From Dasania sp. GY-MA-18 (GTDB taxonomy: Bacteria > Pseudomonadota > Gammaproteobacteria > Pseudomonadales > Dasaniaceae), in assembly GCF_024734385.1 (NCBI RefSeq), contig NZ_JANHAP010000006.1, positions 62,001 to 126,000 on the forward strand: a stretch of 64,000 nucleotides of DNA, written 5' to 3'. Every line of letters starts with the position of its first letter. The stretch's first letter is position 1. Position numbers and translations under genes: made by a program. The notes below the pieces were generated by a model. The model had not been told where the DNA came from, did no database searches, and worked only from the letters and a program-made list of their open reading frames with translations. Below, in pieces: positions 1 to 53,343 of this stretch.

Positions 1-1022
1 CTATTTTTGGTCAAATAGAATATGATTTGACGGATTCATTATTGCTTACAGCAGGTTTACGTTGGACTGATGATGAAAAAGAATTTGATATTACTAGTCA
101 ATGTTTAGAAACAACTTTGCAGGCTGCCAAGGATGTCTTTGGTCCTAACTCTGTTGGCCCTGGTACGGGCGTAGACTGTGCATATCTTGAAAGCTTCGGA
201 GCTGATGTGGTTTTAACCTTGCCGGGTGAGCAAAACTTTGAGCGCCACGATGAAGATTATTCAGGAAAGTTACAATTAGATTACCGCATGGTTGATGATG
301 TTCTTCTATATGCTGGTGTTAGTAGAGGCATGAAAGGCGGCGGTTTTACTGCTCCTTTGGATGGCTTGTTGGCTGAGCCAGCTATGAGCTACGAACCAGA
401 AATATTAACTAGCTATGAAATTGGTATTAAGTCTGAGTGGTGGGATGGCAAGGTACGGCTGAATGCTAGTGCTTTCCAATATGATTATGAAGACTATCAA
501 GGATTTGTTTTTGTTGGCCTAACATCTGTAGTGGTAAACAATGATGCTACTGTAACCGGTGGTGAAATTGAGTTGTATGTTTCTCCTTCTGAGGGATGGG
601 ATATATCACTGGGTGTGGCAATCCTCGATGCCGAAGTTGAAGACGTCACATTCCGTGACGGTGTTACTGTAGAGGACCAAGACAAAACTACATCACCAGA
701 TTTAACGGCCAACTTGCTAATTAGAAAGGGCTGGGATTTAAGTGATGGCGCTGAGTTTGCCGTGCAGGTTGATGGTCAATATATCGATGAGCAGCAGTTA
801 GGTACAGAAAATAGTGATTTGGCGATGACTAGCTCTTACTCCATTTGGAACGCTAGAGTGAGTTACACCACTGAAAACTGGGACGTAGCTGCATTTGTTA
901 AAAATGCGGGTGATAAAGAGTACCGTACCTACGCTTTCGATCTAGAAACGGACTTTGGTTACTCACTAGAAGTTTACGGCCCACCACGCTGGGCAGGCAT
1001 ACAAGCCCAATATCGTTTCTAG
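1..1022 (+). CDS. TonB-dependent receptor, C-terminal part (cut by window edge)
   Basis: The reading frame is open to the first base, so the gene starts upstream and only about the last 340 residues are here. The protein shows alternating aromatic/polar beta-strand pattern of an outer-membrane barrel, with typical receptor phrases such as LLLTAGLRWTDDEKEF near the visible start, YAGVSRGMKGGGF and SYEIGIKSEW, and it ends in YRF, the C-terminal aromatic expected for BAM-dependent insertion. Such receptors import siderophores, vitamins or other large ligands using TonB energy; the ligand cannot be read. A strong terminator follows about 60 bases after the stop, so the gene ends its transcription unit. 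Confidence 0.93.
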   Translation, partial: IFGQIEYDLTDSLLLTAGLRWTDDEKEFDITSQCLETTLQAAKDVFGPNSVGPGTGVDCAYLESFGADVVLTLPGEQNFERHDEDYSGKLQLDYRMVDDVLLYAGVSRGMKGGGFTAPLDGLLAEPAMSYEPEILTSYEIGIKSEWWDGKVRLNASAFQYDYEDYQGFVFVGLTSVVVNNDATVTGGEIELYVSPSEGWDISLGVAILDAEVEDVTFRDGVTVEDQDKTTSPDLTANLLIRKGWDLSDGAEFAVQVDGQYIDEQQLGTENSDLAMTSSYSIWNARVSYTTENWDVAAFVKNAGDKEYRTYAFDLETDFGYSLEVYGPPRWAGIQAQYRF

Positions 1023-1131: not shown

Positions 1132-2211
1132 ATGTGTGCTAAAAGCAATGTAGTGGTCGCTGCTAGCGAGAGTAATGCTGAGCAGCGATCTGTTTTAAGA
1201 GCGGCCTTTTTAGCAGAAACTCGTTACTGCGATTGGCGGCTAGTAGCGCTAAGCGCCGATGCCTCTTTTCGTCGATATTTTCGCCTTAGCCATAATGGCC
1301 AGTCGGTGCTGCTGATGGATTCTCCGCCCGACAGCGAAGATATGGATAGTTATATCAAGGTGGCTCAATACCTGTTAAGTGCCGGTTTACGAGCCCCTAA
1401 AATTTATGCCTTAGATCAAATCAATGGCTTTGCCATTATCGAAGATTTCGGCAATCAAACGTATACCCAGTTATTAGATGCTGGTGAACAGGCAGAGCCA
1501 TTATATCAATTGGCTATAGATGCCTTGGCGCGTTTACATCAGCGCTTGGACATTAAGCAAATTGATATCCCACGCTATGACCAGGGTTATTATCAGGATG
1601 AGGCGTCTTTATTTATTGATTGGTATTGGCCCGCCAGAACCGGCGGTCAAATTTCCGATAATTTACGCCGTGAATATATGGCTATCTGGGATCAACTTCT
1701 GGCCCAGGTTGCTACTGATAATGAATGCATGATTTTACGCGATTATCACGTTGATAATTTGATGGTGATAGCCGGTGAAAGCGGCTTGAATAGTTGCGGC
1801 TTATTAGATTTTCAGGATGCACTAATAGGTTCGCGGGCTTATGACATGGTGTCTTTATTTGAGGATGCCAGGCGTGATGTGGACCAAGCTATGGCGCAGC
1901 GTTTAATAGAAGGCTATCTCAAAGATTTTGGCCCGCAACAGGCAGCCGATTTTCATTATGACTACAACGTATTAGGTGCTCACCGCCATATTAAGATTGT
2001 GGGTATTTTTGTGCGTCTTTGTGTTCGTGATGGCAAATCACATTACTTAGATTATTTACCCAGAGTGCAACGTTTATTGGAGCATTCCTTATTAAAGCCA
2101 GAGATGAAACCGTTAGCGGAATGGCTAGATAGAAACCACCCTGGTTTTGTTTCTGCACCACTGCAGTTTGATGCCCGTATACTCAAAGGCATGCTCTGCG
2201 AAACATTATAA
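1132..2211 (+). CDS. amgK: AmgK-like sugar kinase (aminoglycoside phosphotransferase fold)
   Basis: 359 aa if started at the ATG preceded by GGAG; the longer frame to 1096 would begin inside the terminator. The fold is that of COG3178 kinases: N-terminal ADASFRRYF, glycine-poor ATP loop region, catalytic LRDYHVDNLM around residue 200 and the metal-binding LLDFQDA about 25 residues later, plus the C-terminal GAHRHIKIVGIF. In Pseudomonas and relatives AmgK phosphorylates MurNAc/GlcNAc at C1 during cell-wall recycling and is paired with the uridylyltransferase MurU. Here the partner two genes downstream is a GlmU-type domain instead. The next gene begins 41 bases downstream, consistent with an operon. 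The family call is good; the exact substrate is inferred. Confidence 0.75.
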   Translation: MCAKSNVVVAASESNAEQRSVLRAAFLAETRYCDWRLVALSADASFRRYFRLSHNGQSVLLMDSPPDSEDMDSYIKVAQYLLSAGLRAPKIYALDQINGFAIIEDFGNQTYTQLLDAGEQAEPLYQLAIDALARLHQRLDIKQIDIPRYDQGYYQDEASLFIDWYWPARTGGQISDNLRREYMAIWDQLLAQVATDNECMILRDYHVDNLMVIAGESGLNSCGLLDFQDALIGSRAYDMVSLFEDARRDVDQAMAQRLIEGYLKDFGPQQAADFHYDYNVLGAHRHIKIVGIFVRLCVRDGKSHYLDYLPRVQRLLEHSLLKPEMKPLAEWLDRNHPGFVSAPLQFDARILKGMLCETL

Positions 2212-2252
2212 ATTCATTAAAAGTTAAAGATGTACTGATAGGAAGTAGCGCC

Positions 2253-3770
2253 ATGAACAACAGTGAAAAAAGAAACGGTTTAATCGAATGTGCTGGCAAG
2301 ATTTTTTATAACAATGCCTTGCATGATTCAGTATCAGATGTGCGTATCCCGGTGATTAACCCTGCCACCGAAGAGCAGGTGTCGGAAATTGTTAGCCCCA
2401 CTGAACAAGAAATTGATCATGTTTTAAAAATTGCCAATACTGCACAAAAAAAATGGGCCAATACCGATGCGAAAACCCGCGCCGCGTATTTACATAAAAT
2501 TGCCGACTCCATAGAGCATGCTAATCACCAGCCAGTAGCTGAGGCTATGAGCTTAGAAATGGGCAAGCCCTATCCCGAGGCGTTGGGTGAAATTGCCAAC
2601 GTGGGCCCCATATTTCGCTATATGGCAGAAATGGCTCGTGACGATGGTGGCCATATAGCTGGTACTACCCAGATAGGCTCTTTTCAATACTGCCGCTACG
2701 AACCTTTAGGGGTGAGTGTGCATATTATGCCGTTTAATTTCCCCATTTTATTATTCGCCTGGACTGCAGCGGCTTCCTTGGCTTGCGGTAATGCGTTTGT
2801 GATGAAGCCTGCCGAGGCTACATCTATTAGCTCGTTGATGTTTATGGATCACTTTAAAGTATTGCCAGAGGGTTTGGCAGCCTGCTTAACCGGCAACGCC
2901 AGTGTGGGTAGCCACTTAGTAGCTTCTGACTTAACCCACGCCGTTGCCTTTACCGGTAGTGTTGCTGTTGGTCGCAAGGTCAATATCGCCTGTGCCGAAG
3001 CAATGAAACCCGCAGTGATAGAGGCTGGCGGTAACGATGCCATGATTATTGCCGAATCTGCCGATATAGAAATTGCAGCTGCGGGCAGTATTTGTGCAGC
3101 ATTTCATTTAAGTGGTCAGGTCTGTACCTCTGCGGAACGTTTTTTTGTGGTGGACGCCATACATGATGAATTTGTAGAGGCCTTTGCCAAACGTGCCAAA
3201 GCGCTGCGTATAGGCCACGGTTTAAGTAAGGCCGAGATAGGCCCAGTAGTTAATGTTGCAGCCAGAGATAGAATTAAAAATCTGGTAGATAAAACCGTAG
3301 CCCAAGGTGCAACTGTTGTATGCGGCGGTAAAATCCCGGATGGATTTGATAAGGGCGCTTACTACGAACCCACTATTTTGACCGATGTGACACCGGATAT
3401 GGAGATTATGAACTCGGAAGTATTTGGCCCGGTAGCGGCAATTTGTCGAGTAAAAGATGTGGACGAGGCTATAGCTAAAGCCAACGACTCACAGTTTGGT
3501 TTAGGTGCCTGTATTTTTACTAATGATTTTAAAGAGGCCACTAAAGCCACCGAACAATTACAAACCGGCATGGTGTGGGTGAATAACCCCATGATAGATA
3601 ACGATGCCTTGCCTTTTGGTGGTGCCAAAATGTCGGGCTTGGGCCGCGAGTTGGGCCGTGAAGGCTTGAACGCTTTCCGCCAGAGCAAAATGGTAATACA
3701 GGATGCCGACCCCATTATGCACGACTGGTGGTATCCCTATCCGGATTCAGCTTTTCACCCCGATGCCTAG
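2253..3770 (+). CDS. NAD(P)-dependent aldehyde dehydrogenase
   Basis: 505 aa, full length for the ALDH superfamily. It has the cofactor-binding segment MPFNFPILLFAW, the loop FTGSVAVGRK, the general-base glutamate in IEAGGNDA (the usual ELGGKSP is replaced) and the catalytic cysteine in GQVCTSAERF, followed by EVFGPV and LPFGGAKMSGLGRE. It should oxidise an aldehyde to a carboxylate in the cytoplasm. The GGND variant is unlike the two other aldehyde dehydrogenases of this window. Sitting in one run with a lysine-6-dehydrogenase-like enzyme, it could oxidise an aminoadipate-semialdehyde-like product, but this is inference. Confidence 0.88.
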   Translation: MNNSEKRNGLIECAGKIFYNNALHDSVSDVRIPVINPATEEQVSEIVSPTEQEIDHVLKIANTAQKKWANTDAKTRAAYLHKIADSIEHANHQPVAEAMSLEMGKPYPEALGEIANVGPIFRYMAEMARDDGGHIAGTTQIGSFQYCRYEPLGVSVHIMPFNFPILLFAWTAAASLACGNAFVMKPAEATSISSLMFMDHFKVLPEGLAACLTGNASVGSHLVASDLTHAVAFTGSVAVGRKVNIACAEAMKPAVIEAGGNDAMIIAESADIEIAAAGSICAAFHLSGQVCTSAERFFVVDAIHDEFVEAFAKRAKALRIGHGLSKAEIGPVVNVAARDRIKNLVDKTVAQGATVVCGGKIPDGFDKGAYYEPTILTDVTPDMEIMNSEVFGPVAAICRVKDVDEAIAKANDSQFGLGACIFTNDFKEATKATEQLQTGMVWVNNPMIDNDALPFGGAKMSGLGRELGREGLNAFRQSKMVIQDADPIMHDWWYPYPDSAFHPDA

Positions 3771-3835
3771 CTAGGTGCTGGTTATCAGCAAAAGCCGAAT
3801 ACGAATCATTAATAAGAATTGAAAGAAGAATTGTT

Positions 3836-4570
3836 ATGAGTCAGCAACAAGCAGAAGTCGCCGTAGTGGTGTTAGGCGCGGGTAAGGGCACGCGCATGCA
3901 GTCGGATTTACCCAAGGTGTTACAGCCTTTAAAAGGCCGGCCTTTAATTAGCCATTTATTAACAGCGGTAGATGGTATTAACCCCGATAAGTGCGTAGTG
4001 GTTATAGGCCCCGATATGGATAACGTAAAAGCCTGTGTGGCGCCGCGGTTAACGGCTATACAACATCAGCAGTCGGGCACAGGTGATGCGGTAAAAGCGG
4101 CCAGAGCTATGCTGGAAGATTTTCACGGTGATGTCTTAGTGGTTTATGGCGATACCCCTTTAATTACCACTGCTACTTTGCAACGTTTATTAGACGAGCG
4201 TCATCGTGCTGCCAACCCAGCGGTAGTGGTATTAGGTTTTCGTCCCGATGACCCTTTGCAATATGGCCGCTTAAAAGAGGGGGCCGATGGTGAGCTGGAA
4301 GCTATTGTTGAATTTGTTGATTGTGACGAGCAGTTAAAAGCTTCCAACCTATGTAACTCCGGGGTCATGGCTTTTGACGGCCAATATCTTTTTGAGTTGT
4401 TAGATGCGATCACTAATGATAATTCTAAAGGTGAGTATTACTTAACCGATGTTGTTGCCATTGCGAAAAGCAAAGGCCTTAGCTGTGCCTTTGTGGAAGG
4501 CGATCCACAGGAAGTATTAGGCATTAATACCAAAGCAGAGTTGGCAGAAGTAGAAAGCTTATTGGCTTAA
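3836..4570 (+). CDS. Stand-alone GlmU-type sugar-1-phosphate nucleotidyltransferase
   Basis: 244 aa from the ATG at 3836, which has a GAAAGAAG ribosome site; the frame is open further upstream but overlaps the previous gene. The sequence follows the pyrophosphorylase half of GlmU: VLGAGKGTRMQSDLPKVLQP (nucleotide loop), QSGTGDA, VVYGDTPLI, QYGRL, CNSGVM and KGEYYLTDVV. The left-handed beta-helix acetyltransferase half of true GlmU is absent, so this is not the housekeeping enzyme. With the AmgK-like kinase upstream it could make a UDP-activated amino sugar from a salvaged sugar. It differs from MurU, which has an RmlA-like start. Confidence 0.8.
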   Translation: MSQQQAEVAVVVLGAGKGTRMQSDLPKVLQPLKGRPLISHLLTAVDGINPDKCVVVIGPDMDNVKACVAPRLTAIQHQQSGTGDAVKAARAMLEDFHGDVLVVYGDTPLITTATLQRLLDERHRAANPAVVVLGFRPDDPLQYGRLKEGADGELEAIVEFVDCDEQLKASNLCNSGVMAFDGQYLFELLDAITNDNSKGEYYLTDVVAIAKSKGLSCAFVEGDPQEVLGINTKAELAEVESLLA

Positions 4571-4611
4571 TGCTTGCTGGGCTCATTGAATAATAAAGAA
4601 TAGGTGCCCCC

Positions 4612-5838
4612 ATGAATACCTTAGAAAATAGCGGCGATATATCGGTACAAAAAAATGGTTTGTTAAAAGACTCGCTGCCGGATGACTGGCCCGCCACCTT
4701 AGGTGCTGCGGCTGCAGCCTATGGCATAGGCATGTTGTCTTTATTGGTGTTGCCTTTTTTAATCGGTGCGACCATGAGTTCTTTGGGATTGACTGGTAGC
4801 CAAGCCGGTTGGCTGGGTAGTGCAGAATTAGTTTGTGTCACTATAGGCTCGTTTGCGGTAGCTCCCTGGATAGGTCGTTTGCCGCGGCGTACTTTGGCCA
4901 TGAGTGGCGCGGCTTTGGCCATAGCCGCTAATGTGGTGAGCATGACCAGCTTGTCTTACGAATTGCTAATGTTGTGTCGCGCCATTGCCGGTCTGGGTTG
5001 TGGCTTGGCACTGGCGGCGGGCAACGCTACGGTAGCCAGCTCTAAAAATCCCGAAAAAATGGCAGCGCATATGTCCATCTTTTTTGTGGTGATCATGGTG
5101 GCCCTAATGATGATTTTTGCGCGGGTAGGCGATATGTATGGCTACCAGGGTAGCTATGGTGCATTGGCGGCAACCATAGCCGTGGTTAGTATTTTATTAT
5201 TAGGTTTGCCGCAACACCCTAACGCCAGCGTACAATCCGAAGCCGTTGCCAGCGCTAATAATAAACAGCTGTTTTCCTTGGCGGGCATAGTGATGATGCT
5301 GGCGATGTTTTGCTTTCAAATGCGCGACACCATGTCCTGGGCTTTTGTAGAGCGCATAGGGGCGGGAGTGGGCTATACATCAGCAGAGGTGGGTAATTTA
5401 CTGTCGCTGCAGGCGGTGTTGGGTTTATTGGGGCCGGTTATGGCCACATTAATGGGCTCACGTTTTGGCCTAAAAATCCCAGTGATTATTGGTGTAATGG
5501 GCTCAGGCTTAGTCACGGTAATGGTATTGCTATCCACCGATTCTGTGGCCTTGTATACCGCAACCGTCTCGTTGATTTCTATTAGTTATTTTTATTCTTT
5601 AGCCTACTTAACTTCTTTGGCTGCCGAGCTGGATAAAGATGGCCGCATAGTGGCGGCATCGGGTGGTTTACTGATTGCTGGCTCAGCAGTGGCACCGGTT
5701 ATTTCCGGTTATATTTTAGACGCCGGTGGCTATATGTTAATGGGTTGGGTGGCTGCCGGTGTGGTGGGCCTTACTTTGTTATGTGCCTTAATTGCATTGG
5801 GGACTTTGAATAGCAGTGCTTTAAAGAAGACGGTTTAA
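4612..5838 (+). CDS. Major facilitator superfamily transporter
   Basis: 408 aa with about twelve hydrophobic segments and no signal peptide, typical of MFS_1 permeases. The loop after helix 2 carries a GRLPRRTLAMSG-like form of the MFS motif A. The C-terminal half repeats the pattern after a hydrophilic stretch around residues 200-220. It lies 41 bases after the nucleotidyltransferase and 72 bases before the dehydrogenase, so it probably belongs to the same transcription unit and moves a substrate or product of that pathway. The substrate cannot be deduced. Confidence 0.85.
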   Translation: MNTLENSGDISVQKNGLLKDSLPDDWPATLGAAAAAYGIGMLSLLVLPFLIGATMSSLGLTGSQAGWLGSAELVCVTIGSFAVAPWIGRLPRRTLAMSGAALAIAANVVSMTSLSYELLMLCRAIAGLGCGLALAAGNATVASSKNPEKMAAHMSIFFVVIMVALMMIFARVGDMYGYQGSYGALAATIAVVSILLLGLPQHPNASVQSEAVASANNKQLFSLAGIVMMLAMFCFQMRDTMSWAFVERIGAGVGYTSAEVGNLLSLQAVLGLLGPVMATLMGSRFGLKIPVIIGVMGSGLVTVMVLLSTDSVALYTATVSLISISYFYSLAYLTSLAAELDKDGRIVAASGGLLIAGSAVAPVISGYILDAGGYMLMGWVAAGVVGLTLLCALIALGTLNSSALKKTV

Positions 5839-5910
5839 GTAGCAATGTAGTGCTGCTACCGGCGCTATGGTTTTTGTTTTTAATTAAAATAATGAGATAA
5901 GAGGTTGTAG

Positions 5911-7110
5911 ATGAATATTGTAATTTTAGGTGGCGCTGGCCTTATGGGTTCCGGCACGGTTAGGGATCTGGTTTCTGAATTGTCTTCAGGGGTAGAGAGC
6001 CTAGTGGTAGCTGATGTTTCGCCGCAGCGTATGGATGAGTTGTTAACGGAGTTAAACGATGATCGTATTAGCTCGGTGATTCTTGATGTCACCAATAAAG
6101 AGGCCACCATGGAGTTGCTGCGCAATGCGGATATCTGTATTAATGCGGTGCCGACTTTTGCTGGTTATCAAATGGATATTTTCCATTATTGTTTAGAGGC
6201 TAAAACCCCTTATGTGGATTACGGTGGCATGGGTGTGTATACGGTTAAGCAAAAGAAAGAGCATGCCGAGTGGGAAAAAGCAGGGGTGACGGCGGTATTA
6301 GGTTTAGGTGCCGACCCCGGTATGTCCAACATGACCTGTAAGGCTGTGGCTGAGCGCTTAGATACTATCGATAAAATCAACTTGTACTGGGCTGCTGAAA
6401 TTGAAGGGCCAGAAAACCCCGTACTGGTGCCGCCTTATAGCGAGTCTACGGTATTGGGCGAATACGCTAACAATAGCCAGCAGTTTTTAGACGGTGCTTT
6501 ACGTGAAGTGGGGCCGCAAACCGGTAATGAAATTATCGATTTGCCTGAGCCCTGGGGTAGAACGGAATTTATTTACTCGCAGCATTCTGAGCCGCTAACC
6601 GTGCCTTTTGCGCATGGCTTTGCCGATAAAGGCATTAAAGAGTTTACCTGGAAGCTATCGCTACCCGCTCGTGAGCACGAAGCCTGGGTGGGTATAGTTA
6701 AGGCCGGCTTTGGTGATTTTGATGATCCTATCAATATCAAAGGTGTAGATATTAAACCGGTGGAATATTTGCAGGCGGTAATACGCCGCAATATAGAGCG
6801 CAATAAAGATAAAATCCCTGAGCAGGAAGGCTACGAAATCCACTTTGCTATAGGCGAGGGTATTAAGGACGGTAAAAAAACGCGGGTTAAGTGCGTAGTC
6901 TCATCTAAGCCGGACCCTTTATACGATGCCTATAACGACGCCGCTACCTCTATGAATGTGTCTATAGGTGCGCAGTTATTATTACGCAATGCTTTAAAGC
7001 CCGGAGTCTGGGGCCCTGAAGAATATTACGATGTTGAGGAGTATTTTAAGGAAGTGAAACGCAGACGTTTTCACGTTGAAATTGAAACGAATATCATCGA
7101 AGAGTTATAA
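5911..7110 (+). CDS. Lysine 6-dehydrogenase / saccharopine dehydrogenase-like oxidoreductase
   Basis: 399 aa. The N-terminus is a Rossmann fold with the nucleotide loop ILGGAGLMGSG and an acidic residue at the end of strand 2 (VVADVS), which favours NAD. Further family signs are INAVPTF, YVDYGGM, GLGADPGMSNM and the C-terminal GVWGPEEYYDVEEYF, which resembles the end of bacterial L-lysine 6-dehydrogenases (GVYPPE...). Such enzymes oxidatively deaminate lysine to aminoadipate semialdehyde. Together with the aldehyde dehydrogenase at 2253 this would form a short lysine or diamine oxidation route; related saccharopine-dehydrogenase-type enzymes also act on carboxyspermidine or homospermidine, so the substrate is open. 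Confidence 0.75.
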   Translation: MNIVILGGAGLMGSGTVRDLVSELSSGVESLVVADVSPQRMDELLTELNDDRISSVILDVTNKEATMELLRNADICINAVPTFAGYQMDIFHYCLEAKTPYVDYGGMGVYTVKQKKEHAEWEKAGVTAVLGLGADPGMSNMTCKAVAERLDTIDKINLYWAAEIEGPENPVLVPPYSESTVLGEYANNSQQFLDGALREVGPQTGNEIIDLPEPWGRTEFIYSQHSEPLTVPFAHGFADKGIKEFTWKLSLPAREHEAWVGIVKAGFGDFDDPINIKGVDIKPVEYLQAVIRRNIERNKDKIPEQEGYEIHFAIGEGIKDGKKTRVKCVVSSKPDPLYDAYNDAATSMNVSIGAQLLLRNALKPGVWGPEEYYDVEEYFKEVKRRRFHVEIETNIIEEL

Positions 7111-7341: not shown

Positions 7342-8115
7342 ATGGCAAAGCACACAGATAATTCAGCGAGCGAGCAAACCCTAGCTATAGTGAGCCGCCA
7401 CCACCAGTATTGGTTACAGGGTGATATCGCTGGCATTATGTCCTTGTATCACCCCGATATACGTTATTTTGATTACCTTAATAACATAGAGATTACCCGC
7501 GACGAGTTAGCCGATTACCTTAGCTTTACCTTGCTTACCCCTAGCCAAGTCACTTTGCAGCATACCGATCGCATTCGCGTGGATGGCGATACAGCATTCA
7601 TTCAATACCAATATTCTATTAAACGTGCCAATAACAAGGCCTATCATTATCGTTCTAGCGAGGCCTTAACGGTGCAGGATGGCAAGATAATTCGCATTAA
7701 TGAATACTCATCCTTAATGCGTTCGCAAGAGGAGTTAAGCAGTACCCAAAAAGGCAAAATAGGCTTGGACGATAGCCGCTTGCAAATACTGCTGCAGGAT
7801 TTAAGTGATTATTTTGAAAAGCACCAACCCTATTTAGATAGCCGGCTAAATTTAGCCCAGGTAGCTCAAGCTACCGGCTATACCCGCAATCAAATCTCCT
7901 ATGCCCTGAATAATGGCCTGCAAAAAAGCTTTTATGAGTATGTGAATTTATCACGCATAGAGCATTTGTTGCTGTTATTACAGCAAGACTCAAATCGTAA
8001 TATTAGCGATGTTGCCTTACAGGTGGGGTTTAATTCCAGCTCCACTTTTTATAAGTTTTTTAAGCAGTTTACTGGTTTAACACCTAAAGCCTATTTAAAA
8101 AACATACAAGCTTGA
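7342..8115 (+). CDS. AraC-family regulator fused to a SnoaL/NTF2-like domain
   Basis: 257 aa. Residues about 10-130 form a SnoaL-like (NTF2 fold) small-molecule pocket: HHQYWLQGDIAGIMSLYHPD at the start and FIQYQYSIK...HYRSSEALTVQDGKI later. Residues about 165-257 are an AraC DNA-binding module with two helix-turn-helix motifs, ending in the signature DVALQVGFNSSSTFYKFFKQ and FTGLTPKAYL. AraC proteins usually carry cupin or other ligand domains; SnoaL is less usual. It probably senses a small ligand and controls the flanking gene run (1132-7110) or the amine oxidase downstream, which is inference from position. Confidence 0.85.
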   Translation: MAKHTDNSASEQTLAIVSRHHQYWLQGDIAGIMSLYHPDIRYFDYLNNIEITRDELADYLSFTLLTPSQVTLQHTDRIRVDGDTAFIQYQYSIKRANNKAYHYRSSEALTVQDGKIIRINEYSSLMRSQEELSSTQKGKIGLDDSRLQILLQDLSDYFEKHQPYLDSRLNLAQVAQATGYTRNQISYALNNGLQKSFYEYVNLSRIEHLLLLLQQDSNRNISDVALQVGFNSSSTFYKFFKQFTGLTPKAYLKNIQA

Positions 8116-8183: not shown

Positions 8184-9863
8184 TTAGCTTTGGAAAATTT
8201 CCGTGGCAGCGCGCTCACCTGTTTCTATCGCGCCCTGCAAGAAGCCCCAGTACTCTACCGAGGTGTGCTCACCGCAGAAGTGTACATTGTTTGTGGTTTC
8301 TTTTTCCCATTGCGCACCCCAGAAGCTAGTGAACTGGCCTAGGCCTGGGGTAGCGTAACTACCTTTAGACCAGGGGTTTACTGTCCACTTAGATTTTAAG
8401 GCTTTATTATCGTAAGCCGCAGTAGTGCCAGGGAATACAGGCTCTATTTGGCTTAGGAAGTTATTGACATTAGGGTTGCTGGCATTGCCAAACGGCTGGT
8501 TGCCGCTGAGGTTACGACCTTGATGACCACCTAGGTAATCACACATAACACTGCCGGTGGTGCCGCTGGTTACCTGAGTATCCCATACGGTTACAAAACC
8601 ATCGCCGCCTGAATAACTAACGCCATTCATTTGTATGTCGTGGCCATTAATATTGCGAACAGCATCCCATGGGCGTGAATCAGTTTGTATGTGTATCTTA
8701 CCGTTAGCGCCTATGCTCATTTCATTAATAGCTTGCTGCTTGGCACTGGAGAAGGTGTTCCAGATGGCAGGTGCTATATCCACTTCGCGTAGCTTGGTAA
8801 AGGGCAGAGCCAATACCAGTTTATCAGCGGTGGTGGTACTGCCATCATCGAAGGTGCAGGTATATGGACCTTGCGCGTCACCGCTAATAGCGGTTAAGGC
8901 GCGACCCGTTTCTATAGTATCGGTAGGCAGGTCATCAGCCATGGCATACACCAGCGAGTCGTTGCCGCCTACTATATGGTAGCGCTCATCCGTACCGGCA
9001 ATAGGCAGTGGATTGTTAATTGAGTTCCATGCCATGAGGTAAACCAAGTTTAAACAGGTTTGCTCTTCGGGGGCTAAGCCGTATTCCGAGATTACATCGG
9101 CCTGCATAAGTTGGCCAAAGTTACTGTTGGCGCCTATGCCTACTTCATCTAACCAATCATTAACATTGATATGGTCTAAGCGCACATGCTCGGCGTTGTG
9201 GCTGTCGTAAGTGGGCTGCCAGGGGGCGGCACTTTCGGTATTACCAAAAATGTTGTGTATATTACCCCAATCACTGGTCAGCTGAGCCTCGGTATAAAAT
9301 TGGTTGTTAACATAATAGAGCTCTTCGCCGCCGGGTAAGGCGCCACCGCCTACATCTTCCAGGCTTAGGCCTAGATTGTTAACCAGGTTACGTATGTTGC
9401 TGTGTTCGGTGGAAATTAATTCGCCACCGCGCTCAACATTCATACCATTATCAAAAAAGCCTCTAGTGGTAAAACAGCGGCCACCTATACGGGTATTGGC
9501 TTCATAGATTTTTGAACTAATACCGTATTGCTGTAGGCGGTGGGCACAGCGCAAACCGGCTAAGCCGCCGCCTATGATGGCAACGCCCACATTGCCTGAG
9601 GGTGGCGGTGGTGGTGGCTTTTTACCGGCAAAGCTGGGTGCGGCTGCACCCAAGGCACCGGCTGCAGCTACCCCCATACCCATGTGCTTAACAAATTCAC
9701 GTCGCTCCGTGCGCTGTGCATGTTGAAGTTTTTCTTGCTCTTTTAAGCGATCAAGTAATTCATCCGTAGGAATACCCGTTTGCTTAGAGGTGTTGTGTGC
9801 CCACTGCAAGCGTTTTATTAAACTCGCAATGGGGTTATTTGAGCGGCGTGATTTACGGCCCAT
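8184..9863 (-). CDS. Tat-exported flavin monoamine oxidase, copy 1
   Basis: 559 aa with AGGAGAG ribosome site. Residues 54-80 form a twin-arginine signal (ERREFVKHMG, then a small-residue hydrophobic core ending PSFAG) after an unusually long charged n-region; a proline-rich linker (KKPPPPPP) follows. The mature part is a flavin amine oxidase: FAD dinucleotide-binding IGGGLAGLRCAHRL at about 97, YEANTRIGGRCFT, and the C-terminal FAD motif FCGEHTSVEYWGFLQGAIET. It should oxidise an amine to an aldehyde with release of ammonia and hydrogen peroxide in the periplasm. The paralogue at 10341 aligns end to end. Amine substrate unknown. Confidence 0.92.
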   Translation of the reverse strand: MGRKSRRSNNPIASLIKRLQWAHNTSKQTGIPTDELLDRLKEQEKLQHAQRTERREFVKHMGMGVAAAGALGAAAPSFAGKKPPPPPPSGNVGVAIIGGGLAGLRCAHRLQQYGISSKIYEANTRIGGRCFTTRGFFDNGMNVERGGELISTEHSNIRNLVNNLGLSLEDVGGGALPGGEELYYVNNQFYTEAQLTSDWGNIHNIFGNTESAAPWQPTYDSHNAEHVRLDHINVNDWLDEVGIGANSNFGQLMQADVISEYGLAPEEQTCLNLVYLMAWNSINNPLPIAGTDERYHIVGGNDSLVYAMADDLPTDTIETGRALTAISGDAQGPYTCTFDDGSTTTADKLVLALPFTKLREVDIAPAIWNTFSSAKQQAINEMSIGANGKIHIQTDSRPWDAVRNINGHDIQMNGVSYSGGDGFVTVWDTQVTSGTTGSVMCDYLGGHQGRNLSGNQPFGNASNPNVNNFLSQIEPVFPGTTAAYDNKALKSKWTVNPWSKGSYATPGLGQFTSFWGAQWEKETTNNVHFCGEHTSVEYWGFLQGAIETGERAATEIFQS

Positions 9864-10340: not shown

Positions 10341-12023
10341 TTAGCCTTGGTGTATCTCAGTAGCGACTCGTTCACCTGTTTCTACAGCACCTTGCAAGAA
10401 GCCCCAGTACTCAACGGAAGTATGCTCACCGCAGAAGTGTACATTATTGCTGGTTTCTTTTTCCCATTGAGCACCCCAGAAACTGGTGAACTGGCCTAGG
10501 CCAGGGGTGGAGTAACTACCTTTAGACCAAGGGTTAACAGACCACTTAGAGGTTAGGGCTTTATTCTCATAAGCGGCAGTGGTGCCGGGGAATACTGGCT
10601 CAATTTGCCCTAAGAACTTATTAACATCTGTTCTCTTAGATGAGCTAAAGGGTTGGCTGCCACTGAGGTTGCGGCCTTGGTGGCCACCTAGGTAGTCACA
10701 CATCACACTGCCAGTCGTGCTGCCATTGACCTGAGTATCCCAAACCGTGACAAAGCCATCACCGCCGGAATAGCTGACGCCATTCATTTGTATATCGTGG
10801 CCGTTAACATTGCGTACCCCGCTCCATGGGCGAGAGTCAGTTTGTACGTGTATTTTACCGTTCGCACCTATACTCATTTCATTAATAGCTTGTTGTTTGG
10901 CGCTAGAGAAGGTGTTCCAAATAGCTGGGGCAATATCTACCTCACGCAGTTTGGTAAAAGGCAGAGCTAACACGAGTTTGTCAGCGGTGGTGGTGCTGCC
11001 ATCACTAAAGGTGCAAGTGTATGGGCCTTGCGCAGCACCGGTAATGGCCGTTAAGGCTTTGCCTGTAACAATGCTGTCGTTGGGTAATTCATCGGCCAAG
11101 GCGTATACCAGGGCATCATTACCGCCGACGATATGGTAGCGTTCATCGGTACCCGCTAGCGGTAAGGGGTTGTTAATAGAGTTCCAAGCCAGCAGATAAA
11201 CCAAGTTTAAACAGGTTTGTTCTTCGGGAGCCAAGCCGTATTCCGAAATGAGATCTGCCTGCATGAGCTGACCAAAGTTACTGTTGGCACCTATCCCTAC
11301 CTGGTCCATCCAGTCATTGGCATTGATATAGTCTAAACGCACATGCTCGGCATTGTGGTTGTCGTAAGTAGGCTGCCATGGGGCAGCGCTTTCGGTATTG
11401 CCAAATAACGGATAAATATCGCGCCAGTCATCTTCCAGCTGTGCCTCGGTGTAGAGCTGGTTATTAACATAATAAAGTTCTTCGCCGCCGGGTAGGGCGC
11501 CGCCGCCTACGTCTTCCAATGTTAAGCCTAAGGCGTTCACTAGATTGCGGGTGGCACTGTGCTCGGTAGAAATAAGCTCGCCGCCGCGCTCCACGTTCAT
11601 ACCATTGTCAAAGAAACCACGGGTAGTGAAACAGCGGCCGCCTATGCGGGTATTGGCCTCATAAATTTTTGAGCTAATGCCGTATTGTTGCAGCCTATGG
11701 GCACAACGCAAACCGGCTAAGCCGCCGCCTATGATGGCTACGCCTACATTGCCAGACGGTGGCGGCTTAGGCTTGCCGCCTTTACCGGCAAAGCTGGGTG
11801 CAGCTGCGCCTAGGGCACCGGCTGCGGCTACCCCCAGGCCCATATGTTTAACAAATTCACGTCGCTCTGCGCGCTGAGCATGTTGAATTTTTTGTTGTTC
11901 TTTTAGGCGGTCCAGCAACTCATCTGCAGGAACGCCAGTTTGTTTTGAAGTTTTATGCGCCCATTGTAAACGTTTGAATAAGTTTACTGCGGGGTTGTCG
12001 GAGCGACGCGATTTACGGCCCAT
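10341..12023 (-). CDS. Tat-exported flavin monoamine oxidase, copy 2
   Basis: 560 aa, same architecture as the copy at 8184: long basic n-region, twin-arginine motif ERREFVKHMG, hydrophobic segment ending SFAG, a KGGKPKPPP linker, the dinucleotide-binding IGGGLAGLRCAHRL, and the C-terminal FCGEHTSVEYWGFLQGAVET. Long blocks of protein are identical between the copies while their codons differ widely, so the duplication is old and both copies are kept by selection. It is divergent from the LysR gene at 12655, which may control it. It probably acts on amines in the periplasm; the two copies may differ in substrate or expression. Confidence 0.92.
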   Translation of the reverse strand: MGRKSRRSDNPAVNLFKRLQWAHKTSKQTGVPADELLDRLKEQQKIQHAQRAERREFVKHMGLGVAAAGALGAAAPSFAGKGGKPKPPPSGNVGVAIIGGGLAGLRCAHRLQQYGISSKIYEANTRIGGRCFTTRGFFDNGMNVERGGELISTEHSATRNLVNALGLTLEDVGGGALPGGEELYYVNNQLYTEAQLEDDWRDIYPLFGNTESAAPWQPTYDNHNAEHVRLDYINANDWMDQVGIGANSNFGQLMQADLISEYGLAPEEQTCLNLVYLLAWNSINNPLPLAGTDERYHIVGGNDALVYALADELPNDSIVTGKALTAITGAAQGPYTCTFSDGSTTTADKLVLALPFTKLREVDIAPAIWNTFSSAKQQAINEMSIGANGKIHVQTDSRPWSGVRNVNGHDIQMNGVSYSGGDGFVTVWDTQVNGSTTGSVMCDYLGGHQGRNLSGSQPFSSSKRTDVNKFLGQIEPVFPGTTAAYENKALTSKWSVNPWSKGSYSTPGLGQFTSFWGAQWEKETSNNVHFCGEHTSVEYWGFLQGAVETGERVATEIHQG

Positions 12024-25328: not shown

Positions 25329-28300
25329 TTACTGCTCTTGTTCCGCCCACGCCGCCAATAGCTCATCCATGGATTTTAATCCGTGCATGGGTAGGGCGTG
25401 GTTGATAACGGTTTTAACAGCGCCGTTGGTCACCTCGGGCAGGCGGTTTTCCCACATGGCTTGGTGTAGGTTTTCCATCTCATCCCATTCACCTAGGTAG
25501 GGCTCGGGTACTTGTACGGCACCGGCGTCTATCATTTGGTTTAGGCCTAAGATTTCTGCCGCGTTACACAAGTGGGTGCCCACTATGGATGCGGTAGGCA
25601 TCAATATTTGACGCTGACGCATCCACACTTGCGGTGCGTAGAAGCTGTAACGTTTGCCGCCCATGTCACCGGCGTAAATCACTATGCCGGTATGGGGTTT
25701 TACCATCATGGTGGAGGCGAACAGTGAGTCGGTGTGCGCACGCTCTATGATGATGTCGGGCTGGCCGCGGGGGTTGTCCTCAGAGCGCAGCAATTTACCT
25801 ACTGCTTTGCCTATGGGTTTAAGGGTGTTTTCGTTCATTAAACGTACGCACTCTTTAAACTCTGGCGACTCGGGGTTGGGTAAATCAGCCATGGTGTCTG
25901 GCCAGTCGAACTCGGGCTCGCGGCGTTTGATTTCCGCCAAGCTCACTGCGCCTAAAACGGCATCACCAAAGCCCAGTGACATCACAAAATCGCGTTCGGC
26001 ATCGGTGTCGGTAACCACCACTATGCGCAATGATGAGGCGCGGCCAGCTTCTATGGCGGCCAGGGCTTCGTTGTCACGCTGGCCGGTGCGGCTGCCGTAG
26101 AAGATAACCGTGGCCTGGCCGGGGCGGGCTTTGGCTTTGCGTAACATCTCGGTGGCAGAGCAGCTACCGGGCTTGCCTATAAAGGTCATGTGGTAACCGG
26201 CGGAGGCGCCGAAGTAAGTCATCACGCCGTTTTCACCCAGCGCTTGGAAGCTGCGCGGGAAGGCGGTTTCACCGGCGTGGGATAGGCCGTGGGTGCACAG
26301 CTCACCGTCATTAGCTGCGCGTACGGCGTTTAAGAAACCTTCACCTTGTTGCTGCCACTGTGCCCACTGTGAGGGCTCAACAGGTACTTTAGTGAAGCAA
26401 TCTTTAATGGCGGGGTCTTTGCGGTTAATACCCGCAGAGCCTTGCTTGCGCAAGTATTCACAGCGCTCCTCCGACGACACCATGCCGGTGATCTTGGCGC
26501 CAGCGGCCAGGCCTAACTCCACTGACCAAGCGCCGGTACCCGAAGCGGCACCTTCAACAAACATGCGGTCGCCTTGGCGTAACTCTAAGGCGCGGAACAG
26601 GGCACGGTAGGCGGTACCAGCAGGCAGCATATAAGAGCCAGCCGCTTCTAAGCTTAGGTCTGCGGCGGGGGCTATCATCTGCGGGCCCGAGCAAATCATA
26701 AACTGTTGATGTGAGCCGTCTGGCGATTGGTAGCCCTGTATGTGAAAGTCGGTGAACATGGGGTCTACACCGGCGGCAGGGTCTAGCACATCAGATACGC
26801 CTGAATAAACCACTACCAGTTTGCCTACGGCTAAGCGGCCTTCGCTCTGTAGGCCTTCGCCCATTTTCGCCACTATGCCTATGCCGCCAGAGCCGGTGAC
26901 GTGTATATCTTCATCGTGCTCGTCGAACAAGGAGATGGGGATGCCGGTAATGGCCCAGATATCGTTGTAGTTAAGCTCAGAGGTGAGCATATACACCAAA
27001 GCTTCATTAGCTTCTGGCTGCGGTACCGGGATGATTACTTCTTCCTCTACATCTATGGGGTCGCCGTGTTTGGCGGCACCGGTTTGGGCATCACGCACTG
27101 CGGCCTTGGCTAGTTGGTAGGGTGGGATGGGGGTGATACCAGCTAGGTAAGGAGCACCCATGGGCAGCATGTGGCCCTCGGCTATGAGTGCGTCTTTTTC
27201 GCTGATATCTTTGCGGGCGCGGCTGGGCAGGGCGGGTGACTGTTTATCCATAAACAGCTGTATGCCTTTTTTGCCGCCGTTTTCTGCGTCCATAACAAAC
27301 TGGGCGAAGGTGTCTATCTCGCTGTTTAAGCCAGCCTTAAAGCCTTGCTCAAAGCCTAGCTTAACCAAGTTGACTATGGCCTGGGCTACGGGGCCGCGGC
27401 CTGCTTGCTCGGAAGCCTTAAGGCAGATTTGCACATAGTCGTCATCTAAGGTCGCTGTGGGGAAGCTGGCTGTTTGGTTCCAGCGAGCTACCGCCTCGTG
27501 ACGGTTGTTCATGGCCGTGATGGCCGTGCCACTGCCATTGATGGCAGCTTCTCGTGCCAGGGCTTGTGCAGCAGGTAATACGCTGTCAGCGCCAGTGCAG
27601 TACTTATCTACCAAGCCAAATTCATTGGCCTGTTGGCCTTTGATTTGACGGCCTGATAACAACATGGCCATGGCGCGATTCAAACCGGTGATAGCATCAT
27701 CGCCCGCTGCATCCATCAACACTCGCGGTAAACGCTGAGTGCCGCCGTAACCCGGTGGCAGGTACAGGTTGATTTCGGGCTGGCCGAAAATCGTGCGGCT
27801 GTTGGCTACGCGCATATGACAGGCCAGCGCCATCTCGCAGCCACCACCTAGGGCTACGCCCTCAACGGCTGCTATTACGGGCTTGCTCATATTCTCGATC
27901 ATATTGGCAACGGCATGCGCCTTAGAGGGCAATGAGCGCGCAGCGGCGGCATCATGTACGTCTTCTAATAATTGGCGTACGTCGGCACCGGCTACAAAGG
28001 CTTTGTTGCCAGCACCGGCCAACACTACTGCGCCTATGTCTGAGCGACGGGCGATATGGGTAAGGGCGGTTTCCAATTCATCCAATAAACGCTCGGATAA
28101 GGCGTTAACCGGCGGGTTGCTAATAGTGACGGTGGCCACGCGTATGGTTTCACCGTTTTTATCGGCAACCGGTGCATATTCGATGCGCAAAGTGCGGGTG
28201 TTTTCTACTATGGTTTGGCGCTCGGCACGGTCTTGGCCTGCTTGCCATTTAGCCACGGCTGCGCGTATTTCATCTAGGCACTCTGGGTTGCGCAGGGTAG

Positions 28301-30728
28301 AGGTATCACCTAAGTCTTCCCCTAGCACTATGGCTTTTAGGAAGCGGCGCATGTATTTACCGCTGCGAGTTTCTGGGAAAGCCGACAGCGAAATAAAGTC
28401 AGAGGGCACGGCCACCACGCCTTTTTCTTCGCGCACTAATTCTTTTAAGCGGCGCTCGTCGTCGCGGGTGATATGCGAATCGCCCATGGGCAAAATAAAG
28501 GCCAAGGGGGTTAAGCCTTTTTCACTGTGGGGCGCGCCTATAACAATACAGTTACCCACTTTTGATTCGGGGTTTACTTGTTTGTCTTTTAAGATTGCGC
28601 CTTCAATTTCTTCGGTACCCATGCGGTGGCCCGAGACGTTAATAACATCATCAGAGCGGCCGTGTAAGGAGAAGCTGCCATCTTGGTAACTGCGGGCAAA
28701 GTCGCCTTGTAGATAACCGTAAGCTGGAGTGCCATCTTGCTTGCAGTAGCGGCCAAAGTAAGTGCTTTCGAAGCGCGCAATATCACCTTTCCATTCGGGC
28801 TTACCCACATTGGCGGCGTCGCCCCAAACGGTGCGAGCCAAATAGGGGTAGGGGCGGGCGATGACCACTTCGCCTTTTTCATCGTGTTGAGCAGAGCGGA
28901 AAGCCACCCGGCCCTGCGCATTAGCTTCGCCTTGGGGTATCCAGATGTCGCCAAATATCCACGGTAGTGGGTAGGTGTGAGTGTCTGCGCGCAGCGGTAA
29001 ATCTTTGTTGCCGTAGGGGTGGGTCCAGACTATGCCGCCGTGTTCGGTGGCCCAGTAAGAGTTGATGTACTGTGGGGTCATCAACTCCATGGCAAATTCT
29101 TGTACCGAAGGTGAGGTGGGTTCGGCGCAGAAGGTGGCTACTTTTAGTGAGGACATATCGTAGCGCTCAACGTCGGCGCGGTTTTGGTTGTTGGTCATTA
29201 TCCCCTTTAAGAAGGTAGAACCCGCTTTAAATATAGTGACGCCATAGCGCTCGATAATGGATGAGAATCTACCGGTGTGTGGAAACACGGGCGAGCCTTC
29301 GGTTACCACGCTGCTAACCCGCGATGATAGGGCGGCGCTAATCATATAGGACTGGCCGGTGATCCAGCCGGGGTCGGCGATGACCCACATCACGTCTTTG
29401 CCGGGCACAGCATCAAACGCGACTTTCATGGTTTCGGTGATACCGGCGATATAGCCACCGTGTACGTGTACTACGCCTTTAGGTTTGCCGGTAGAGCCTG
29501 AGGTGTAGATGATAAACATGGGGAACTCGGCATCTACCGCTACAGGTGGCACGGATTGATAAAGTGCTGCCACTAAGTCTTGATCGCTTAGCGCGTTTAA
29601 GTCGGCGCGTGAGTTTAGGCCCGCGTTTGTTAGGATTTTTTGCTCGGCGGCGGCTAGTAAATCATGCGCCCACACATCGCGGCCTTCTGACCAAGGCAGG
29701 TCGTTTAGGGCGACGTGGCGCACCACTATCACTTTTTCTACCCGCGCCGGTGAGTTAGAAAGGGCGGCGGCTAATTCGCCGCGCAGTTCGGCGGTGTCTT
29801 CGGCACTGAGTTGCGCTTTGGCTAAAATTTTACCCACTTCACGCATGACTTCGGCGCGGCTTAGGGTGATTTCACTACCTAATACTTCGGTGACGTGAGC
29901 AACGATTTTGTTTTTTAATGCGCCGTCAACGTTGGCATTGGCCAGAATATCTAATGCGGACGTGATAGAGATGTATTTATCCAAAGCCGGGTCGCTATAA
30001 ATTTCTTTAAAGCCCGCTACCTCGGCGTTGCGCGAGGCGCCGTCGGCGGTGATAACCACTTTCGCTCCGGCGTTTTCTATGCGGTCGGATAAGGTTTTAT
30101 CCGAGAAACCACCAAATACCGGGGTGTAGATTACGCCTACCCGCTTGGCGGCTTCGGTCCACACAATTTGCTCCAGTATATTAGGCATGTTGATGGCAAT
30201 GCGGTCACCGCATGTTAAGCCTAGGTCACGCAGGGCTTGCGCGGCGAGTACCGACTGAATCATTAAGTCGCGACGCGACATGCTGTAGTGTTGTACCGGG
30301 CCGCCTTTGCCGTTGTTGGCGGTGGGGTCCCAGCGGTCGCCTTCGTAGAAAAAGGCGGTTTCAGCACCGTGGCCGGCTAATACGTGGCGGTCAACTTCGT
30401 TGAAGGCGGCGTTGGTTTTGCCGCCTATAAACCAGCGGTAAAAGGGCGCTTCGCTTTCGTCCAGGGCGGTGCTCCAAGGTGTCCAGCTGGCTAAGTCAGC
30501 GGGTTTGCCGTTGGCATCCCAGCCGGTCCAGCCGTTGTCGTTTTTTGTTAGCCAGGCGTTTTGTTCGGGGTTAAACCAATGGCAGTTTTTGGCGGCGATG
30601 TCACCGTGAAAGGCGCCTAGGTCTTGTTCGCAGTCGGCGCGCATTTGCTGCCAGTCATCGCCGCTACGTATGGGGTTTTGCATTATGCTGGCTGGTACTT
30701 TGGGGGTGTATGCAGTGTTGTTGCTCAT
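25329..30728 (-). CDS. pcs: Propionyl-CoA synthase (three-domain fusion)
   Basis: 1799 aa, close to the size of known propionyl-CoA synthases (about 1820). Three enzymes are fused. Residues about 1-840 are an acyl-CoA synthetase: IIYTSGSTGKPKG near 408, YWATEHGGIVWTHPYG, and TRSGKYMRR with the acetylatable lysine near 788. Residues about 860-1180 are an enoyl-CoA hydratase: ISNPPVNALSERL, FVAGADVRQL, GVALGGGCEMALA near 959. Residues about 1230-1799 are a crotonyl-CoA-reductase-type NADPH reductase: ELNYNDIWAITG and FVEGAASGTGAWSVELG near 1396. Together they convert 3-hydroxypropionate, ATP, CoA and NADPH to propionyl-CoA through an enclosed acryloyl-CoA. AGGAGA ribosome site; 106 bases after the alcohol dehydrogenase. 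Confidence 0.95.
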   Translation of the reverse strand: MSNNTAYTPKVPASIMQNPIRSGDDWQQMRADCEQDLGAFHGDIAAKNCHWFNPEQNAWLTKNDNGWTGWDANGKPADLASWTPWSTALDESEAPFYRWFIGGKTNAAFNEVDRHVLAGHGAETAFFYEGDRWDPTANNGKGGPVQHYSMSRRDLMIQSVLAAQALRDLGLTCGDRIAINMPNILEQIVWTEAAKRVGVIYTPVFGGFSDKTLSDRIENAGAKVVITADGASRNAEVAGFKEIYSDPALDKYISITSALDILANANVDGALKNKIVAHVTEVLGSEITLSRAEVMREVGKILAKAQLSAEDTAELRGELAAALSNSPARVEKVIVVRHVALNDLPWSEGRDVWAHDLLAAAEQKILTNAGLNSRADLNALSDQDLVAALYQSVPPVAVDAEFPMFIIYTSGSTGKPKGVVHVHGGYIAGITETMKVAFDAVPGKDVMWVIADPGWITGQSYMISAALSSRVSSVVTEGSPVFPHTGRFSSIIERYGVTIFKAGSTFLKGIMTNNQNRADVERYDMSSLKVATFCAEPTSPSVQEFAMELMTPQYINSYWATEHGGIVWTHPYGNKDLPLRADTHTYPLPWIFGDIWIPQGEANAQGRVAFRSAQHDEKGEVVIARPYPYLARTVWGDAANVGKPEWKGDIARFESTYFGRYCKQDGTPAYGYLQGDFARSYQDGSFSLHGRSDDVINVSGHRMGTEEIEGAILKDKQVNPESKVGNCIVIGAPHSEKGLTPLAFILPMGDSHITRDDERRLKELVREEKGVVAVPSDFISLSAFPETRSGKYMRRFLKAIVLGEDLGDTSTLRNPECLDEIRAAVAKWQAGQDRAERQTIVENTRTLRIEYAPVADKNGETIRVATVTISNPPVNALSERLLDELETALTHIARRSDIGAVVLAGAGNKAFVAGADVRQLLEDVHDAAAARSLPSKAHAVANMIENMSKPVIAAVEGVALGGGCEMALACHMRVANSRTIFGQPEINLYLPPGYGGTQRLPRVLMDAAGDDAITGLNRAMAMLLSGRQIKGQQANEFGLVDKYCTGADSVLPAAQALAREAAINGSGTAITAMNNRHEAVARWNQTASFPTATLDDDYVQICLKASEQAGRGPVAQAIVNLVKLGFEQGFKAGLNSEIDTFAQFVMDAENGGKKGIQLFMDKQSPALPSRARKDISEKDALIAEGHMLPMGAPYLAGITPIPPYQLAKAAVRDAQTGAAKHGDPIDVEEEVIIPVPQPEANEALVYMLTSELNYNDIWAITGIPISLFDEHDEDIHVTGSGGIGIVAKMGEGLQSEGRLAVGKLVVVYSGVSDVLDPAAGVDPMFTDFHIQGYQSPDGSHQQFMICSGPQMIAPAADLSLEAAGSYMLPAGTAYRALFRALELRQGDRMFVEGAASGTGAWSVELGLAAGAKITGMVSSEERCEYLRKQGSAGINRKDPAIKDCFTKVPVEPSQWAQWQQQGEGFLNAVRAANDGELCTHGLSHAGETAFPRSFQALGENGVMTYFGASAGYHMTFIGKPGSCSATEMLRKAKARPGQATVIFYGSRTGQRDNEALAAIEAGRASSLRIVVVTDTDAERDFVMSLGFGDAVLGAVSLAEIKRREPEFDWPDTMADLPNPESPEFKECVRLMNENTLKPIGKAVGKLLRSEDNPRGQPDIIIERAHTDSLFASTMMVKPHTGIVIYAGDMGGKRYSFYAPQVWMRQRQILMPTASIVGTHLCNAAEILGLNQMIDAGAVQVPEPYLGEWDEMENLHQAMWENRLPEVTNGAVKTVINHALPMHGLKSMDELLAAWAEQEQ

Positions 30729-52347: not shown

Positions 52348-52462
52348 GTTAACTAACCTGTTTATGCTGTAGTAAAAGAGTGAGCACCCTGCGGCCTGAT
52401 GCTGCGATTAGGCCCCGGCATTGGGGGTGTGGCGCTTCTTTGGGTATTGCTTGGCGTTTTAA

Positions 52463-52506
52463 AACCGAACAATTATTCGGAATAATACTTGAATAATAAT
52501 TCGGTT
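52463..52506. promoter_or_regulatory. Tandem TetR-type operator candidates
   Basis: Site 1 is CCGAA-CAATTA-TTCGG (52465-52480); site 2 is TTGAA-TAATAA-TTCGG (52489-52504), with an imperfect left arm. Their centres are 24 bases apart. They match the palindrome at 32373-32392 in arm sequence and 6-base spacing. They lie in the divergent promoter region of the PuuB-like and PuuD-like genes. Confidence 0.68.
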
Positions 52507-52578
52507 TCTACAATAATCCAAGTTCTATTTATTACTAAGTAAGCCTTAGCTATGGCAAATGAGGCGCTGGAGGGGGGT

Positions 52579-53334: not shown

Positions 53335-53343
53335 AGGTGTCTT

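Follow-up and report, generated by a model that had tools for sequence, protein, structure and literature searches.

A stretch of 64,000 nucleotides from Dasania sp. GY-MA-18 (assembly GCF_024734385.1, contig NZ_JANHAP010000006.1, positions 62,001 to 126,000 of the forward strand), called here the window, carries near its start a run of five genes: for an AmgK-like sugar kinase, an aldehyde dehydrogenase (ALDH), the uridylyltransferase half of GlmU, an MFS carrier and a saccharopine-dehydrogenase-like oxidoreductase (SDH). We put at about one half the probability that these genes are part of a module for the glycosylation-dependent catabolism of an amine, whose central enzyme, a glycosyltransferase (GT), is encoded in a divergent operon upstream. 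The enzyme families, the kinase motifs, the operon structure, the co-conservation of the genes and the exchange of some of them for analogues are read directly from the sequences.

In the proposed pathway an amine, probably polyamine-like, would enter through a TonB-dependent receptor and the MFS carrier, or, in relatives, through PotABCD-type importers. GT would attach to it the sugar of a UDP-sugar, SDH (or a flavin oxidase) would oxidize the C-N bond to an aldehyde, and ALDH (or an aldehyde:ferredoxin oxidoreductase) would convert the aldehyde to an acid. The sugar would then be released, for which two cupins are candidates by association only, after which the AmgK-like kinase would phosphorylate it again at C1 and the GlmU half would return it to UDP-sugar, closing the sugar cycle. 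The sugar would play the part that glutamate has in the PuuA-PuuB-PuuC-PuuD logic. The substrate, the donor, the catabolic direction, and the identity and release of the sugar are what we infer; the acceptor is taken to be an amine because the importers are of Pot type and the partner enzymes are amine-oxidizing. GlcNAc is the favored sugar because AmgK, an anomeric kinase, acts on MurNAc and GlcNAc (PMC5371407), the transferase has GlmU motifs, the phosphosugar mutase of the haloarchaeal clusters is GlmM-like, and, more speculatively, the core GTs carry the motif WDGxDN.

More tentatively, we suggest that a sugar, probably GlcNAc from UDP-GlcNAc, is attached to an amine nutrient as a tag that is later taken off, with a kinase-uridylyltransferase cycle and non-homologous parts in Proteobacteria, Desulfobacterota and haloarchaea, a strategy not described before. 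The original prediction for the five genes had spoken of an undescribed salvage or modification pathway, which agrees with the conservation of the module over at least three phyla; no description of such a pathway was found in the open-access literature searched. In the Puu pathway glutamate is the tag that an amine receives before it is oxidized; a sugar counterpart, if true, would be a new route by which microbes of soils, seas and hypersaline habitats draw nitrogen and carbon from amines. It would also give a function to genes annotated merely as glycosyltransferase, cupin, phosphotransferase or saccharopine dehydrogenase, suggest that some small-molecule GTs of this group are catabolic rather than detoxifying or biosynthetic, and place an AmgK-like kinase in use outside cell-wall recycling.

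The gene run and the divergent glycosyltransferase operon

All five open reading frames of the run (1132-7110) are intact and on the plus strand, with gaps of 41, 65, 41 and 72 bp between them, as had been described. The kinase (1132-2211, with an in-frame GTG at 1096 as alternative start) is of the APH family and fold, and its best NCBIfam model is that of AmgK (NF045698). The scores, 238 bits against a cut-off of 500 for NF045698 and 174 against 550 for NF045759, do not discriminate, since the MurU-linked AmgK of the same genome is also under both cut-offs (329 and 121 bits). The catalytic motifs LRDYHVDN and DFQD are intact, the APH catalytic Asp/Asn being conserved, and the enzyme is proposed to make a sugar-1-phosphate from the sugar.

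The free-standing transferase (3836-4570, plus strand; its ATG lies within a longer frame opening at 3728) matches GlmU models in their N-terminal half only (NF010933, 277 bits, model positions 3-241 of 453) and is closest to alphaproteobacterial GlmU. It matches PDB 9dqf at 162 bits, and GlmU motifs are present, as are what we take to be the GlcNAc-binding residues of GlmU. The acetyltransferase half, a left-handed beta-helix (LbH), is absent, as the frame stops at 4570, the MFS gene is next and the match ends at position 241; the earlier assignment to a GlmU half holds. The protein is proposed to turn the sugar-1-phosphate into UDP-sugar. No MurU lies next to the run kinase, the nearest transferase being the GlmU half. 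A separate AmgK-MurU pair and a complete GlmU, which the original prediction had suggested looking for, are both found elsewhere in the genome: a second AmgK (L002), on another contig, has as its neighbor a MurU scoring above the curated cut-off, and the full-length GlmU-type gene is a frame of 466 aa. The kinase and GlmU half of the run are, therefore, not the housekeeping copies. A scan of genome contigs with the GlmU half as query gave no match. Plasmid matches of the GlmU half (up to 59% identity) were rejected as relatives of the cluster; where annotated, they are full-length alphaproteobacterial GlmU accompanied by glmS.

ALDH (2253-3770, plus strand; Aldedh, 483 bits) is orthologous to the ALDH of GT clusters elsewhere, with 53-63% identity. 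SDH (5911-7110, plus strand) has a Sacchrp_dh_NADP domain and a weak Sacchrp_dh_C match. It has no NCBIfam equivalog and matches no curated lysine or saccharopine dehydrogenase family; its best NCBIfam match is carboxynorspermidine synthase (21.7 bits) and among solved structures carboxyspermidine dehydrogenase is the nearest (57 bits). The earlier label, lysine-6-dehydrogenase-like, thus places it in its superfamily and no closer. SDH is proposed to be an amine (C-N) dehydrogenase that yields an aldehyde. The MFS transporter (4612-5838, plus strand; MFS_1) belongs to the cluster in this genus only, and we propose that it imports the substrate, replacing the Pot-type ABC importer of relatives.

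The unit exceeds the five genes at both ends. Upstream, the C-terminal part of a TonB-dependent receptor (1-1022, plus strand) stops 109 bp short of the kinase start (1132); the whole gene (L071:10797-13022 in the coordinates of the upstream stretch) starts about 1.2 kb outside the window and is likely the first gene of the run. Downstream, the unit reaches a gene for an AraC-type regulator fused to a SnoaL-like domain (7342-8115, plus strand), whose position is kept in the sister species and whose product is likely the local regulator. About 0.4 kb from the start of the receptor gene begins the divergent operon, which encodes a GT1-type GT (L071:9103-10386, minus strand), two EutQ-like cupins that share a conserved DEFCH-type motif, and a TetR-like regulator. 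The UDP-sugar genes make sense because of this central GT, which lies outside the window and was beyond the view of the original prediction. The whole arrangement of about 13 kb, the run with the divergent GT-cupin-cupin-TetR genes, is identical in the sister species (L072), the sole other genome of the genus examined (G001), with 84-97% identity along the five genes and the TonB receptor in the matching position (L072:11025-13301).

GT has the C-terminal donor-binding domain of GT1 enzymes (Pfam UDPGT and EryCIII-like_C matches). Its nearest solved structures are the spider-mite enzymes UGT203A2 and UGT202A2 (7lvy, matched at 178 bits, and 6pnt), and it is below the cut-off for macrolide MGT (TIGR01426, 154 bits against 260). 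The core GTs have the donor motif WDGxDN in place of the DQxDN seen in the mite UGTs and in a Streptomyces outgroup; one may speculate that WDGxDN makes room for the 2-acetamido group. The spider-mite UGT group was acquired from bacteria, and this GT family may include its nearest relatives among them.

Conservation of the module and replacement of its parts

The exact five-gene order is found in this genus only, where it is the same in both species; elsewhere the module has changed partners. In Rhizobiaceae a GntR gene and a PotD-B-C-A importer are followed by GT, two cupins, in some cases the kinase, ALDH and SDH, and in five of these loci (L080, L084, L087, L089, L091) the kinase is directly before ALDH, as in the window. 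Kinases 41-46% identical to that of the run sit in the GT operon of five Rhizobiaceae and one Desulfobacterales metagenome-assembled genome (MAG), and the five Rhizobiaceae also hold a separate MurU-linked AmgK. SDH orthologues are 55-65% identical and lie mostly beside GT. In a pattern scan they came mainly from Rhizobiaceae, with a few alphaproteobacterial MAGs, one Desulfobacterales MAG and one Dehalococcoidia MAG; those on plasmids are mostly of Rhizobiaceae, and beyond the genus no good orthologue was found within the order or class. A Pot-linked cluster without SDH is present in Ruegeria (Roseobacteraceae) and on a plasmid of Shinella HZN7. On plasmids GT and ALDH are tightly linked: every record whose ALDH matches at E<=1e-150, ten in all, is among the 11 with a GT of >50% identity, and the one left over, that of Ruegeria, carries an ALDH of 53% identity in the same operon. 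A second, divergent GT paralogue lies beside GntR in the Rhizobiaceae and Ruegeria clusters (L096:2659-3957, L097:2725-4020, L098:2666-3967).

Plasmids of haloarchaea carry GT (51% identity), cupin and ALDH in that order, adjoining a ROK sugar kinase and a GlmM-like phosphosugar mutase, nearest to archaeal GlmM, and without an SDH-like gene. The locus of Natrialba magadii adjoins gamma-glutamyl-amine (Puu-type) genes, and that of Natronorubrum aibiense an aminotransferase and an ABC importer whose binding protein is of the PotD type.

The strongest argument that the module is a pathway is the swapping of its parts for proteins that are unrelated but functionally similar. In the Desulfobacterales MAG (L076), a branched-chain-type (Liv) ABC importer is followed by GT, the kinase, a 457-aa protein, an aldehyde:ferredoxin oxidoreductase in place of ALDH, and SDH. 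The 457-aa protein has no Pfam or PDB sequence match, and hhalign did not link it to the GlmU half. For its AF2 model (three sequences, pTM 0.55), all 50 of the 50 listed PDB fold matches are UDP-sugar pyrophosphorylases of the Ugp1 and UAP1/AGX types (E 6e-9 to 2e-6, with low TM-scores), suggesting a UDPGP fold. With the GlmU half in Dasania and the UDPGP-fold model in the MAG, the kinase would be followed by a uridylyltransferase in two unrelated forms, which favors the earlier idea that kinase and transferase together could make a UDP-sugar. The family of the 457-aa protein (L076:6673-8046, L160:3650-4933, L161:758-2023) is without a Pfam match, and the L076 member also lacks an NCBIfam match; those of L160 and L161 come from two further genomes of this class, where they are found outside the cluster.

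Exchanges are seen at other steps as well. Another gammaproteobacterium (L164) has an AOR-like gene (26% identity) next to its GT. In haloarchaea the ROK kinase and the phosphosugar mutase are where others have the AmgK-like kinase. In four loci of one alphaproteobacterial genus (L121-L124), GT is 66-67% identical to that of Dasania, SDH is absent and a DAO-family flavin oxidase is in the operon. Two further loci (L131, L132) have two GTs and a cupin together with flavoproteins of the OYE/trimethylamine-dehydrogenase type.

Known systems and alternative explanations

The closest parallel is the Puu pathway (PuuABCD), in which an amine is conjugated, oxidized to an aldehyde and then to an acid, and the tag is released, and which also has a linked polyamine importer; the flavin oxidase of the one alphaproteobacterial genus is, like PuuB, of the DAO family. 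The tag of the module would, however, be a sugar added by a GT1 enzyme instead of glutamate added by a glutamine-synthetase-like ligase, the oxidation would mostly be by the SDH-like enzyme, cupins would stand in place of PuuD, and there are genes dedicated to recycling of the sugar. No glutamine-synthetase-like gene for gamma-glutamylation is in the operon; one is about 46 kb away in the window (53344-54693). It belongs to a separate Puu-like set at 51061-54693, with a DAO-family flavin oxidase and a PuuD-like hydrolase besides the ligase, and an aminotransferase gene is at 46640-48010. Pot importer, ALDH, and SDH or flavin oxidase occur together in relatives; in the genus of the window the carrier is an MFS protein, and both it and SDH would act on a putative amine substrate.

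Like the AmgK-MurU pair, the module has a predicted anomeric sugar kinase and then a uridylyltransferase for making UDP-sugar. Unlike that pair, its kinase is in another sequence group, with the motif LRD[YF]HVDNLM, is partnered by a GlmU half or a UDPGP-fold protein, and shares its operon with GT, ALDH and SDH, the canonical pair being elsewhere in the genome. The transferase of the run has the N-terminal uridylyltransferase domain of GlmU with its nucleotide- and sugar-binding motifs but not the beta-helix half, which the complete GlmU of the genome retains. SDH shares the NAD(P)-binding domain and, weakly, the C-terminal domain of the superfamily of saccharopine dehydrogenase, lysine 6-dehydrogenase and carboxy(nor)spermidine dehydrogenase, which acts on C-N bonds of amines, but forms a group of its own with neighbors unlike those of lysine pathways. 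GT resembles macrolide MGT and the mite UGTs in its GT1 fold and donor-binding domain and differs from them in its donor motif and in lying within amine-oxidizing operons.

Several results weigh against a catabolic module. The type of importer is no more than a hint at the substrate, no dedicated glycosidase or deglycosylating enzyme was identified, and the role given to the cupins is a guess. The cluster is rare and patchy: GT is found in 13 of 385 alphaproteobacterial genomes, 2 of 274 gammaproteobacterial genomes and 1 of 157 genomes of the class of the Desulfobacterales MAG, without a second case in that class. Kinase and transferase are both missing from most alphaproteobacterial clusters, which would have to draw on housekeeping enzymes, and the GlmU half is in the cluster in this genus only. 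The UDPGP fold in the MAG comes from a low-confidence model. In the kinase tree, the cluster kinases are not one clade (2 changes are needed, and long branches are flagged), and they are interspersed with a group of MurU-linked AmgK from one alphaproteobacterial genus. SDH orthologues of 56-57% identity are found without GT in Terrarubrum (L101) and Acidisoma (L102), where the neighbors are an LLM flavin monooxygenase, a PucR regulator and an ABC importer; these loci represent a related but different pathway. The only recognized neighbor of GT is a cupin at three loci (L125, L126, L130) and an ABC-ATPase, with or without a cupin, at three others (L127, L128, L129), so that the GT-cupin pair may have other uses.

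The genes could instead make a glycosylated amine, such as an osmolyte, a signal or a small natural product, with the kinase and transferase supplying the donor and ALDH and SDH shaping the aglycone. A dedicated supply of UDP-sugar is typical of glycoside biosynthesis, and GTs of the MGT/UGT type decorate small molecules. We nevertheless consider biosynthesis unlikely, since the recurrent polyamine-type importers and the GntR or IclR regulators fit uptake and breakdown better, gamma-glutamyl-amine, aminotransferase or flavin oxidase genes are linked in several genomes, and neither an exporter nor a core scaffold enzyme recurs. Detoxification, in which GT and ALDH would inactivate toxic amines or aldehydes as macrolide MGTs and spider-mite UGTs do while the kinase and transferase refill the donor pool, would agree with the mite enzymes being the nearest solved structures and with the common role of ALDHs in aldehyde detoxification. 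It is improbable in view of the specific importer in the same operon, which would be unexpected, and of the swaps of ALDH for aldehyde:ferredoxin oxidoreductase and of SDH for flavin oxidase, which resemble a metabolic route. We give similarly little credence to the salvage of an imported sugar-amine that is split inside the cell, its sugar going to the kinase and GlmU half and its amine to SDH and ALDH, with GT a separate divergent unit. The receptor, carrier, kinase and transferase do share one strand, with GT on the other; in Rhizobiaceae and the Desulfobacterales MAG, however, the GT gene shares a strand with those of the kinase, ALDH or SDH and shortly precedes them, and the run has no hydrolase.

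A second route for recycling MurNAc or GlcNAc from peptidoglycan, into which unrelated dehydrogenases were inserted, would account for the kinase and the GlmU-like transferase, as AmgK and MurU are employed in cell-wall recycling (PMC5371407). The separate AmgK-MurU pair and GlmU of the genome led us to reject it as very improbable, and the partners of the kinase elsewhere are GT, ALDH and SDH, not MurU. The same pair and GlmU, together with the partner genes, uphold the earlier view that the run is neither plain cell-wall recycling nor plain lysine degradation. That the genes are neighbors by chance is scarcely credible, in spite of the confinement of the exact order to one genus: the same genes, partly in the same order, recur in five Rhizobiaceae and the Desulfobacterales MAG, and haloarchaea have some of them. 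Chance was rejected on this conservation, and the refuting condition named in the original prediction, a gene order shared with no relative, did not hold.

Other genes near the module

A tandem pair of closely similar flavin amine oxidases, each with a twin-arginine-like N-terminus (8184-9863 and 10341-12023, minus strand), adjoins the module in both species of the genus and was not seen in other clusters. Inspection by eye revealed, upstream of the module (L071:237-3762), a kynureninase-like gene and a pair for 4-hydroxy-2-oxovalerate aldolase and acetaldehyde dehydrogenase, perhaps an island for aromatic amino acid degradation. Farther along the window (25329-30728, minus strand), also by eye, is a gene for a fused protein of 1799 aa resembling trimodular propionyl-CoA synthase (acyl-CoA synthetase, enoyl-CoA hydratase and reductase); it adjoins an iron-type alcohol dehydrogenase, and the region suggests the use of 3-hydroxypropionate or acrylate.

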